Of a stretch of 25,990 bases of DNA, positions 12,494 to 16,257 are shown piece after piece. The notes under the pieces were generated by a model that searched no databases, was not told the DNA's origin, and saw only the letters and a list, made by a program, of their open reading frames with translations. Where the stretch lies: positions 1 through 25,990 of the IMG/VR virus record IMGVR_UViG_3300030116_004954; one strand, given 5' to 3'. Within the stretch, counting starts at the first letter, position 1, and each line of letters opens with the position of its first letter. A program made the position numbers and the translations under genes. Origin of the DNA: a virus.

Positions 12494-13726
12494 ATGAAAA
12501 TTTCAGAGGACGGAATATATTTTTTATCCTGCCCTACTTGTGGTAGCAAGGATCTTATTAAAAAGGGTACCCAAAAAAGTGCTGGTGGAAATTACAGACA
12601 AAGGTATTTATGTAATAGCTGTGGAACTAAAACAATATATCCAACAAAAAACGATTTAGAGGTTGTAAGAGAAAATTTAAAACTTGCTAAACAAAAACAA
12701 TCTGCACAAGATATAAATCGAATAGAACGAAAAGCATTTAGGGAACACGCCAGATATGAAAACGCAGTACATAACTTATTATTTGACATTCAAGCATTAT
12801 TGCAACAAAAGAATTTTTCAGAGTTTAAATTTAAAAAAGTCAAACAAGGCAAAAGTGTTGGAGTTCTACAAATATCTGATACACATTTTAACGAACTTGT
12901 TTCCCTACCTCATAACAATTATGATTTCAAAGTTGCTGCTAGACGTTTAAAACATTACGTAAATAGAGCAAAAGAAATATTTAAAGTTTATGATATTGAT
13001 AGTGTTTTAATTGCAATAACTGGAGATTTAATAAACTCCGATAGACGGTTAGATGAAATGCTCAATATGTCTACCAACAGATCCAAAGCTGTATTTCTTG
13101 CAGTAGATCTTTTACAACAAATTATATTTGACATTGGACAAGATTATTCTGTGACAGTTGCTTGTGTGACTGGAAACGAAAGTAGATTGAAACAAGATTG
13201 GGGTTGGAGTGATTTTATGGCATCAGATAATTATGATTTTATAATCTTTGAAATTCTAAAACACTTTTTTAAGACAAGTAATGTGCAGTTTGTTGTCGAT
13301 GATCCAACGGAGTGCGTAGTAAATGTCGCAGGACAAAATCTATTGTTATTACACGGCAACGGAAGTTTTACAACACAATACGAAAAAAGCGTAAATCAAA
13401 TAAAAGGGAGATTCTCTGGAAGAGGTGTTCAGATTGATTATATTATCTCTGGACACATACACTCTGCAAGAGTAGGGGATATAGCAAGTAGAAGTAGTTC
13501 GCTTGTGGGGGCAAATGAATACAGCGAAAAAGGATTAAATCTATCTGGAAGAGCAAGTCAAAATATTTATATTTTCCACGAAAATAAAAATATAGATGCT
13601 ATGAAAATAGATTTACAAAATGTTGGAGATGAGTGTTATGACATTGATGAAGAGTTAGAAAGTTATAATGCAAAATCTTCTAACAAACTAAAACCAAACA
13701 AAGTAATACATAAAATAGTTATATAA
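12494..13726 (+). CDS. Zinc-ribbon + calcineurin-like metallophosphoesterase fusion
   Basis: The 410-residue protein has two parts. Residues 13-43 form a zinc ribbon (CPTC ... CNSC) of the InsA/transposase-associated kind that usually contacts DNA. A helical linker rich in Lys/Gln (55-110) leads to a metallophosphoesterase: DTH (129-131), ITGDL (Asp178), VTGNES (Asn228), LLLHGN (His287) and SGHIH (His321, His323). All metal ligands are present. In the GN motif Glu replaces the usual catalytic His, as happens in several nuclease-type members. A DNA-directed phosphodiesterase or nuclease is the best guess. The start is two bases after the nuclease stop, with poor spacing for a ribosome site, so coupling is likely. 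Confidence 0.8.
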   Translation: MKISEDGIYFLSCPTCGSKDLIKKGTQKSAGGNYRQRYLCNSCGTKTIYPTKNDLEVVRENLKLAKQKQSAQDINRIERKAFREHARYENAVHNLLFDIQALLQQKNFSEFKFKKVKQGKSVGVLQISDTHFNELVSLPHNNYDFKVAARRLKHYVNRAKEIFKVYDIDSVLIAITGDLINSDRRLDEMLNMSTNRSKAVFLAVDLLQQIIFDIGQDYSVTVACVTGNESRLKQDWGWSDFMASDNYDFIIFEILKHFFKTSNVQFVVDDPTECVVNVAGQNLLLLHGNGSFTTQYEKSVNQIKGRFSGRGVQIDYIISGHIHSARVGDIASRSSSLVGANEYSEKGLNLSGRASQNIYIFHENKNIDAMKIDLQNVGDECYDIDEELESYNAKSSNKLKPNKVIHKIVI

Positions 13727-13938: not shown

Positions 13939-13981
13939 ATAATATGAAACCACATTGTGTTAAAAATTGGCTTAAAAAAGC

Positions 13982-13987
13982 TATAAT
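13982..13987 (+). promoter_or_regulatory. TATAAT -10 element before the winged-helix/methyltransferase genes
   Basis: A perfect TATAAT lies 35 bases before ATG 14022. The -35 region is poor (GTTAAA-like about 18 bases upstream). It could give extra expression of the methyltransferase operon. It lies within an alternative upstream extension (from 13944) of the next gene, which I reject as the start. Confidence 0.35.
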
Positions 13988-14021
13988 ATCTTATTGCCTA
14001 AAACAAAACAAGGAGAGGAAT

Positions 14022-14315
14022 ATGTACTATAATACTACGAATGAAATATCATTAAACTTAAAAAATAACATAAGAAAAGCAAAAAATCAAAAAGAGATAG
14101 TTTTGGCTATGTTTCAAAAAAACTTCAATTATGAGTATACGCCAGAAACTATGGAGTTCGATCTGAAAGATCAGAAGTTGATACACGAAAAGACACCATT
14201 AACTTCTATAAGAAGAGCTTTCACAGATTTAAAAAACGAAGGATATATTGTGAAAACTAAAAATAAACACATTGGTAACTTTGGTAGATTTTCTTATAGA
14301 TGGAAATTAAAATGA
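14022..14315 (+). CDS. Winged-helix-like small protein upstream of methyltransferase
   Basis: ATG 14022 follows AAGGAGAGG at a proper distance. An upstream ATG at 13944 lacks a ribosome site. The 97-residue protein ends in a winged-helix-like half: TPLTSIRRAFTDLKNEGYIV (residues 62-81) then a Lys-rich wing and FGRFSYRWKL. The segment 'SIRRAFTDLKNEGYI' reads as a recognition helix followed by a wing strand. This pattern is common in small phage DNA-binding proteins. It overlaps the methyltransferase start by ATGA, so it may act as its regulator or partner. Confidence 0.6.
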   Translation: MYYNTTNEISLNLKNNIRKAKNQKEIVLAMFQKNFNYEYTPETMEFDLKDQKLIHEKTPLTSIRRAFTDLKNEGYIVKTKNKHIGNFGRFSYRWKLK

Positions 14316-15301
14316 AACACGGTAGTCTTTTTAGTGGTATCGGTGGAATTGATCTTGGATTTGAGATGGCTGGTATTGAAACTGCCTGGACTTGCGAGGT
14401 AGATGATTGGTGTCACGAACTTCTCAAAAAAAGATTTCCAAAAGCTAATCATTATAAAGACATAAGAGATGTTAATAAAAACAATTTAGAATCTGTTGAT
14501 ATTATCAGTGGTGGATTTCCTTGCCAGGACATAAGCACAGCAGGAAAAGGAGCAGGATTAGATGGAGAGAGGAGTAGTCTTTGGTTTGAAATGTGGAGAG
14601 TTATTTGCGATTTACAACCAAGATGGGTTTTTATCGAGAACGTATCAAATCTCGCTAATAAAGGAGGAGCAAGAGTTTTGCACGATCTTGCCAAAGCAGG
14701 GTATGATGCAGAATGGCAAGTTATATCAGCAAGAGATGTTGGAGGTAGACACCTCAGAAAAAGACTCTGGATCATTGCATACAAGAGAGATTTATTCGAC
14801 ACCATTGAGCAGAGATTTTCGCGACAATTACACGGCATTGAGGGGAAGAGTGGGAACAAAATTCGAGGAAAACGGTTTGCCAAAAACACTTTACAAAGAG
14901 GAAATTTTGAATTATCCAACACCGAGAGCAGCAGACGTTCAAGGGGGAGCAGTAAAGAATGTCGAAATGAGCAAGACGGGAAGTTTCAGTCGAAAGAACA
15001 AAAAGGGCGTAAGATACGGAGTAAAGCTGAAAGATGCAATAATGTATCTACACAACCAACTTCCGAAAGAAGAGCAAATAAAAGTGCTGAAAAACAAAAT
15101 AACGGAATTGGAAAATTTAGAATCAAAACCTTTGAAATACTTAAAAATGAATCCGAATTGGATAGAGTGGCTTATGGGCTATCCCAACAAGTGGACAGAT
15201 ATAACGATAGAGTACAAGGACTTGGAAATGGAGTTGTACCACAAATCCCATATCTTATCGGAAGAAGAATAATAAAAATAAATAACCTATTGGAGGAATA
15301 A
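14312..15301 (+). CDS. dcm: DNA (cytosine-5)-methyltransferase
   Basis: This 329-residue enzyme transfers methyl from S-adenosylmethionine to C5 of cytosine. Motif I is FSGIGGIDLG (7-16). The catalytic loop is GGFPCQD (67-73, Cys71). The ENV motif is at 109-111. Motif VIII is the GGRHLRKRLWIIAY region (144-157). The C-terminal motifs IX/X are in RVQGLGNGVVPQI (300-312) and LIGRRI. The region 160-285 between them, the target-recognition part, is Arg/Lys/Ser-rich and low in hydrophobic residues, which is odd, although LSNTESSRRSRG (201-212) fits a known spot in phage Dcm-like enzymes. ATG 14312 is used rather than 14300 because of the ATGA junction. The same DNA also encodes another recognisable protein (14562-15272), which may explain the strange composition. 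Confidence 0.85.
   Translation: MKHGSLFSGIGGIDLGFEMAGIETAWTCEVDDWCHELLKKRFPKANHYKDIRDVNKNNLESVDIISGGFPCQDISTAGKGAGLDGERSSLWFEMWRVICDLQPRWVFIENVSNLANKGGARVLHDLAKAGYDAEWQVISARDVGGRHLRKRLWIIAYKRDLFDTIEQRFSRQLHGIEGKSGNKIRGKRFAKNTLQRGNFELSNTESSRRSRGSSKECRNEQDGKFQSKEQKGRKIRSKAERCNNVSTQPTSERRANKSAEKQNNGIGKFRIKTFEILKNESELDRVAYGLSQQVDRYNDRVQGLGNGVVPQIPYLIGRRIIKINNLLEE
14562..15272 (+). CDS. Overprinted protein inside dcm (SGMMRNG / WLMGYP family)
   Basis: A 236-codon frame, +1 relative to the methyltransferase, starts at ATG 14562 with AAAAGGAG nine bases upstream. Its product has motifs I recognise from methyltransferase-associated phage proteins: CGELFAIYNQ (11-20), LSRTYQISL (24-32), LPKQGMMQNGKLYQQ (43-57; family form 'WPRSGMMRNGxxYxLP'), NYPTPRAADVQGG (117-129; 'PTPxAxDxxGG'), KKGVRYGVKLKDA (147-159) and NPNWIEWLMGYPNKWTD (198-214; 'NPxWVEWLMGxPxGWTD'). 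The methyltransferase motif VIII and the end motif RVAYGL...RVQGLGN lie on the same bases. Both frames are intact. That the protein is translated is inference from the ribosome site and motif conservation. It may be a methyltransferase subunit or a conserved by-product of Dcm sequence. Confidence 0.6.
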   Translation: MERGVVFGLKCGELFAIYNQDGFLSRTYQISLIKEEQEFCTILPKQGMMQNGKLYQQEMLEVDTSEKDSGSLHTREIYSTPLSRDFRDNYTALRGRVGTKFEENGLPKTLYKEEILNYPTPRAADVQGGAVKNVEMSKTGSFSRKNKKGVRYGVKLKDAIMYLHNQLPKEEQIKVLKNKITELENLESKPLKYLKMNPNWIEWLMGYPNKWTDITIEYKDLEMELYHKSHILSEEE

Positions 15302-15617: not shown

Positions 15618-15779
15618 ATGATAGATAAAAAAATAGAAAAAAAGTACAAAAAATTATTATTAACTTTGAGAGAAGAAAATAATAACATAGTCGAAAGAGC
15701 AAAAAAAAATAATAAGATAAGAGAAAATCTTATATTGCGTAGATTGGAGGATAAAGATGACGAAAAAAGCTCAAGGTAG
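15618..15779 (+). CDS. Possible 53-aa Lys-rich coiled-coil protein
   Basis: The frame from ATG 15618 encodes a Lys/Glu/Asn-rich helix (MIDKKIEKKYKKLLLTLREE...) and overlaps the adenine methyltransferase start by 23 bases. An in-frame ATG at 15579 would add 13 residues but lies inside the hairpin. No strong ribosome site is visible for either. Its last codons carry the GGAGG that serves the next gene. Confidence 0.4.
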   Translation: MIDKKIEKKYKKLLLTLREENNNIVERAKKNNKIRENLILRRLEDKDDEKSSR

Positions 15780-16257
15780 ATTTTATCAAGATGTAGCTTT
15801 TAGATCTGAAAAAGATGATTGGCACACTCCGTACGAATTGTTTGAAACAATTAATTATTATTTTGATTTTGATTGCGATGTTTGTGCTGATGATGACAAT
15901 GCTCTTTGCGATCTTTACTTTACAAAAGAATTTAGCTGCTTAACAAACGAATGGTATGAAACTAATTATATGAATCCACCATATAGTAGAGGTATGGAAA
16001 AATTTATCAAACGAGCTTATAATCAATATTTCGAAGAAGGCAATGTTACGGTAGCTTTACTACCTGCCAGAACGGATACGAAATGGTTTCATAACTATAT
16101 CTATAAATCTGCTGAAATAATTTTTATAAAAGGAAGAGTAACTTTTTATAATAATGAAGGCAAATTACCTAATTCTGCACCATTTCCTAGTATGATAGTG
16201 GGTTGGGGTGTTGATCCAGGCACATTTTCAGAGTTAAAAAGGGATATTAACAAATAA
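15757..16257 (+). CDS. dam: Phage DNA N6-adenine methyltransferase (Dam type)
   Basis: This 166-residue enzyme methylates adenine N6. It has the phage Dam-family layout: DDWHTPYELFE (20-30), the DVCADDDNA region (41-49), catalytic NPPY (73-76), LLPARTDTKWFH (101-112), FIKGRVTF (123-130) and APFPSMIVGWG (141-151). The target is likely GATC-like by family but cannot be read from sequence; GATC sites are not avoided in this window. GGAGG lies 7 bases upstream of the start. It is the last gene of the plus-strand early block. With the cytosine enzyme it would let the phage modify both bases, perhaps against host restriction. Confidence 0.9.
   Translation: MTKKAQGRFYQDVAFRSEKDDWHTPYELFETINYYFDFDCDVCADDDNALCDLYFTKEFSCLTNEWYETNYMNPPYSRGMEKFIKRAYNQYFEEGNVTVALLPARTDTKWFHNYIYKSAEIIFIKGRVTFYNNEGKLPNSAPFPSMIVGWGVDPGTFSELKRDINK

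Follow-up and report, generated by a model that had tools for sequence, protein, structure and literature searches.

A single C5-cytosine DNA methyltransferase appears to be encoded at this viral locus as two polypeptides from nested genes, a reading to which we give a probability of roughly 0.86. The larger gene, here called alpha, would provide motifs I-VIII and X, and the smaller gene, beta, would provide the target-recognition domain (TRD) and motif IX. The window is the whole IMG/VR virus record of 25,990 bases, in which beta lies entirely within alpha, in the +1 frame relative to it. Selection acts on both frames; alpha holds motifs I-VIII and X and beta holds motif IX, and beta modules exist in nature in one chain with motifs I-VIII. 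The genes of the window look naturally split, with the large domain and the C-terminal helix on one side and the small domain with motif IX on the other.

In the proposed arrangement alpha would form the large catalytic domain (I-VIII) together with the C-terminal motif X helix, and an unstructured alpha linker would take the place of the recognition domain of an ordinary enzyme. Beta would be translated from its own ribosome-binding site within the alpha gene, giving a small DNA-reading domain made of the target-recognition region and motif IX. We infer that alpha and beta bind each other, that the variable region of beta reads the DNA and that both are needed for methylation of a short DNA sequence, presumably as a means of phage escape from host restriction.

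Table 1. Features of the nested methyltransferase locus; positions refer to the window.
Feature	Position	Strand	Basis
Alpha, catalytic subunit of the C5-cytosine methyltransferase (motifs I-VIII and X)	14300-15301	+	PF00145 E=8.7e-50; best solved relative M.HhaI
Alpha motif IV (PCQ, catalytic cysteine)	14519-14527	+	Translation; invariant in A4 alignment
Shine-Dalgarno AAAAGGAG of beta, inside alpha	14545-14552	+	Kept in 8 relatives, also L123
Beta (PHROG 1008 family), nested in the +1 frame, with the TRD-slot region and motif IX	14562-15272	+	PHROG 1008 E=7.8e-15; selection in beta frame
Alpha motif VI (ENV)	14636-14644	+	E and N invariant, V nearly so in A4 alignment
Alpha motif VIII (RxR)	14756-14764	+	Both arginines invariant in A4 alignment
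Beta residues 75-193, variable, two xTPxxxD modules (STPLSRD, YPTPRAAD)	14784-15140	+	Inferred target-recognition domain
Alpha linker, codons 166-285, opposite selected beta region	14795-15154	+	Position shares.44/.28/.28; residues 195-299 pLDDT <50
Beta motif IX (LKMNPNWIEWLMGYPNKWTD)	15141-15200	+	Best canonical motif IX profile match p=0.0003; natural variants
Alpha motif X (RVQGLGNGVVPQIPYLIGRRI and C-terminal helix)	15212-15295	+	G309, N310, P314 invariant; helices 301-308, 315-332

The two reading frames and their products

The initial annotation had described a methyltransferase and a 236-codon +1 ORF on the same DNA, a AAAAGGAG sequence nine bases ahead of the beta ATG and three stretches of double reading, and all of these were found as described, the double readings being correct in both translations. 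ORF calling and translation gave an alpha of 333 aa and a beta of 236 aa with an ATG start. The Shine-Dalgarno sequence and ATG of beta are preserved across the whole window clade, and in the relative L123 they are retained despite differing alpha residues at this site, which makes it probable that beta has a start of its own. As to the start of alpha, a second in-frame ATG at 14312 gives a better alignment with relatives than the one at 14300 and may be the real start; an upstream ORF (13944-14315, +) overlaps the alpha start by 16 bases (14300-14315).

Alpha is a member of the C5-cytosine DNA methyltransferases, as judged by the profile match and by the presence of motifs I, IV, VI, VIII and X. 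A TRD and a motif IX of its own are absent from the alpha chain, in which the frame carries no motif IX and the TRD slot is disordered and unselected. Structure prediction gave a confident, folded model for residues 1-180, disorder for residues 195-299 and helices again at motif X, and the best solved matches were M.HhaI and M.HaeIII. The alpha stretch opposite the TRD slot of beta is a nearly free linker, predicted to be disordered.

Selection in the two frames

Homologues were gathered in two independent ways, by the beta protein and by the 87 non-overlapping N-terminal residues of alpha alone. The beta-selected viral contigs gave 37 loci, all of them with alpha in the preceding frame. The N-terminus of alpha found 137 loci, 125 with a complete alpha ORF; beta was present in the same relative frame in every one of these 125, a count that is descriptive since many of these sequences belong to the beta profile. 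Independent of that profile is a test of open length in which synonymous codons were permuted while the alpha protein and its codon set were kept. The longest +1 run in the window gene was 236 codons, compared with a mean of 83 and a maximum of 159 in 500 shuffles, and among the 125 homologues, which were chosen blind to the +1 frame, p<=0.05 was reached in 84% for the +1 frame vs 3% for the +2 frame. In phage-borne relatives of E. coli Dcm, which served as the monomeric control, the longest +1 runs were 52-84 codons, none of them significant, and a shift in codon position was looked for and not seen.

The codon positions indicate the selected frame along the gene. Within the clade of the window, alpha positions 1/2/3 had.176/.096/.372 differences per site in codons 1-87, which lie outside the overlap,.129/.071/.189 in the catalytic overlap and.485/.310/.304 from motif VIII to IX, so that the differences at position 3 were halved over the overlap with motifs IV-VIII. 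Position 1 of alpha is position 3, the wobble base, of beta, and between motifs VIII and IX the pattern is therefore what a gene translated in the beta frame would show; the shift in codon position indicates that the TRD slot is selected in this frame. The clearest case, the comparison of the window with its relative L006, gave.35/.09/.04 at alpha positions 1/2/3 between motifs VIII and IX, and over one and the same stretch of DNA the beta proteins were 91% identical and the alpha proteins 63%. The position-3 dominance was lost at the same place in other clades, a Clostridia set from bacterial genomes among them, and in every clade it was regained past the beta stop. The excess at position 1 stood out in closely related clades and became indistinct in the most diverged, where position-3 dominance was still lost; one clade is without a slot score, as its motif VIII border was misplaced.

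The initial annotation had proposed a true dual-coding gene and had suggested a codon-by-codon check of constraint in homologues. The check gave selection in the beta frame over the slot and the reduced position-3 differences over the catalytic overlap, and together with the comparison to L006 it supports dual coding. The codon-position pattern between motifs VIII and IX also bears out the proposal that the basic, odd middle of the methyltransferase reflects selection in the other frame. Within the TRD slot the alpha frame of the window has 0 stops, compared with 7.1 expected if only the beta protein were kept. This argues that alpha is kept open in order to reach motif X, and that its residues in the slot matter little; the wider set was made up of loci whose alpha frame reads through, which in part accounts for its lack of alpha-frame stops.

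Three loci that were tried as negative controls (L053, L095 and L104) proved unsuitable, as each has a +1 ORF of a second kind, and Dcm was used in their place. This second kind (L095:3149-3694, L104:3164-3679, L259-L280; 28 loci) overlaps methyltransferases of the 'PQRRRRVF' type and carries SLSDILETxxPxKYYLSPKACxGILRRAxxRGK. Its alpha retains canonical motifs IX and X, and the share of position 3 is.34 over the SLSDILET-type domain vs.42-.44 outside.

Motif IX, recognition modules and natural variants

Residues 13-219 of beta match PHROG 1008, an entry with the library name 'DNA methyltransferase' that is silent on a nested second frame, and the same profile was matched by all 74 members of beta set A2. 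Searches of Pfam, NCBIfam and PDB sequences gave no credible match for beta. A motif IX profile built from canonical sequences, including M.HhaI, had its best match at exactly the NPNWIEWLMGYPNKW site in 83/83 beta proteins, and the M.HhaI sequence HPRECARVMGYPDSY aligns with motif IX of beta. Judged from sequence, the beta motif NPxxxEWLMGYPxxW (NPNWIEWLMGYPNKW) is methyltransferase motif IX. This identity of WLMGYP had been missed by the initial annotation, and it makes the second protein most likely the half of this enzyme responsible for recognition. Whole-profile comparison (hhalign) of beta with canonical methyltransferases gave no match, and the comparison for variants carrying both IX and X gave a probability of 50.7% that was not relied on; the link between beta and the methyltransferases rests on motif IX, the natural variants and the gene layout.

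The number of xTP modules per beta protein is mostly one to three and reaches five. The betas of L007 (2289-3146) and L011 (2501-3193) are near-identical save for one in-frame block of ~55 residues with one xTPxxxD module, possibly a change of target specificity, and between those of the window and L006 the difference is a block of ~34 residues. Gain and loss of module blocks between relatives would be expected of a recognition region that changes its target. The structural model of beta was weak (mean pLDDT 61.5, >80 only at about residues 131-180), and a Foldseek search with it returned noise and no fold match, which is unsurprising for a model of this quality. The model was not counted as support, since partner-dependent folding and a poor model would look alike.

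Natural variants of the layout place the same parts in different frames. In L177 and L121 the same LNPDWVEWLMGYP is found in the alpha frame, directly before motif X. In L070, L076, L088, L060 and L115 alpha terminates right after motif VIII, and the +1 ORF continues through xTPxxxD modules to EWMMG.P and GNGVVPQQ (IX and X); motif X is likewise in the beta frame in L050 and L092. In L357 (Mycobacterium phage Saroj) motifs I-VIII, several xTPxxxD modules, EWMMGWP and motif X are all in one single frame, and two more modules remain in the +1 ORF. Thus the frame border shifts among variants and fusion of the modules with the catalytic domain is possible, which argues that beta is the C-terminal part of the enzyme.

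Two further loci have irregular layouts. The parts in L106 (673-1465) are spread over three forward frames, of which one has motifs I-VIII, +1 has the tail with motif X and +2 has PTPTASD...LNPTWLEWLMGYP, and this may be a natural rearrangement or an assembly error. For L367 (2388-3557), a prophage of E. coli EC20, the annotation divides the cytosine methyltransferase into two pseudogene fragments, which adjoin a frameshifted MT-A70 methyltransferase and may represent either decay or a split layout that was misread.

Alternative readings, distribution and known systems

Ribosomal frameshifting, by which motifs I-VIII would run on into the +1 frame for the TRD and motif IX of a single protein, is improbable, although it survives best among the alternatives. 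It would yield a complete single-chain enzyme in the layout of L070, and L357 encodes such a chain in one frame. However, beta has its own conserved start and Shine-Dalgarno sequence, and the alpha frame stays open as far as motif X. A fusion is made less likely by the beta-frame constraint over the overlap with motifs IV-VIII, for which it has no need, and by the second shift back into alpha that the window layout demands for motif X.

About as improbable is a beta with another job, such as an anti-restriction factor, an inhibitor or a nuclease, overprinted by chance on the methyltransferase. Beta is a selected protein without a known fold, as would suit this reading, but it has the motif IX that alpha is missing, it carries motif X in variants whose alpha is without it, L357 has beta modules joined to a methyltransferase, and alpha has no folded TRD of its own. 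Of the 'partner or anti-restriction factor' in the initial annotation, the partner is upheld in form and the anti-restriction factor found no support.

The initial annotation had also considered that the family is a shadow of Dcm, in which case methyltransferase codon choice would have left the +1 ORF as an untranslated by-product, and PHROG 1008 would be a set of mis-called ORFs. Some conserved beta motifs do face conserved alpha motifs, and beta was never found apart from alpha, either in the bacterial beta-selected loci or in the Pseudomonadota genomes. Most records examined also leave the +1 ORF unlisted: it is a separate gene in 0/10 named phage records and likewise not in the E. coli records examined, and in KT997847 it is annotated, as 'putative cytosine-specific methyltransferase'. 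Against these points stand the synonymous shuffle with its Dcm control, the beta-frame selection over a stretch that leaves alpha almost unconstrained and the persistence of the +1 ORF where alpha ends after motif VIII, and with L357 in addition we regard the shadow as refuted and very improbable. As for the single frameshifted gene of the initial annotation, indels from sequencing or assembly are common in single contigs and L106 is possibly such a case, but an indel in an ordinary methyltransferase gene has practically no likelihood as the source of a frame relation that recurs, with both frames open, in hundreds of independent viral and bacterial loci.

The nested two-gene layout extends well beyond the viral contigs. 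In bacterial genomes of several phyla, all 77 assessable beta-selected loci overlap alpha at +1; three further loci, cut at contig ends, were left out. Among Pseudomonadota a match was found in 17/299 genomes (centre included) and every locus with a clear beta has the nested layout, the two weakest hits (L342 and L343) giving no beta profile match. Beta-like features are in the +1 frame in 9/10 named phage loci, and the tenth (L365) has its motif IX in alpha and a shorter +1 ORF that matches weakly. Beta is present in both L358 and L362. Cultured phages with the nested layout include Sulfitobacter phage phiGT1 and Synechococcus phage S-H1. More tentatively, and with somewhat less than even confidence, nesting may be the default for the whole phage and mobile-element branch of C5 methyltransferases, with beta a modular specificity cassette whose targets change by in-frame gain and loss of xTPxxxD modules and the alpha frame opposite merely kept open. 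If so, specificity could evolve without touching catalysis.

The nested overlap recurs in every complete homologue of the sampled branch and is easily testable. Many phage and prophage entries for a 'DNA cytosine methyltransferase' may cover only half an enzyme; alpha cloned by itself could be inactive, and the missing half probably sets the target. Long overlaps on the same strand with both frames selected are, to our knowledge, seldom established in prokaryotes, and the locus offers a test case from nature for the sharing of one enzyme between two frames at a domain border. A literature search on this overlap in phages found none among the papers covered, which does not prove that none exists.

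The small-subunit gene of M.EcoHK31I, as Lee, Kam and Shaw are said to have described in 1995, lies inside the large-subunit gene in another frame, and beta is nested in the window in this same way. M.EcoHK31I has motifs I-VIII and X on the large subunit and IX on the small, with the TRD predicted in the large subunit, and M.AquI is split into an alpha with I-VIII and a beta that has IX-X as well as the distal variable region (PMC3404938). The window shares its motif distribution with M.EcoHK31I (and M.EaeI), two-subunit C5 methyltransferases, and by analogy it probably works like M.EcoHK31I. In contrast to the TRD placement predicted for M.EcoHK31I, the TRD slot of the window is selected in the small-subunit frame, and the prediction might change under the same codon analysis. 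The EcoHK31I sequence was sought by similarity in plasmids and E. coli genomes, where only other methyltransferases were found. Variants like L070 share the motif layout of M.AquI, whereas the window has its motif X in alpha, with one gene nested in the other; a small subunit with X is found only in variants (L070, L050 and others). The two-subunit split is thus already known from M.EcoHK31I and M.AquI, and what is added here is its breadth and codon-level evidence suggesting that recognition is written in beta.

Alpha of the window corresponds to the catalytic domain of the monomeric M.HhaI and M.HaeIII, which differ in having one chain, one frame and a TRD of another sequence. The C5 methyltransferases of SPR/SPbeta/phi3T-type phages are multispecific, single-frame monomers. 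They are like beta in their side-by-side recognition modules, which could give several specificities if beta reads DNA as proposed.

Elsewhere in the window, a 445-aa ORF after the terminase (1536-2873, +) is without a Pfam match, and a 410-aa ORF before the methyltransferase (12494-13726, +) is zinc-ribbon-like at its N-terminus (CPTCGSxxxI...CNSCG) and weakly matches a calcineurin-like phosphoesterase, under the curated cut-off. Directly downstream of the nested genes is a Dam gene (phage DNA N-6-adenine methyltransferase, PF05869, E=1.9e-32; 15757-16257, +), and genes for two kinds of DNA methylation are therefore adjacent in this phage.
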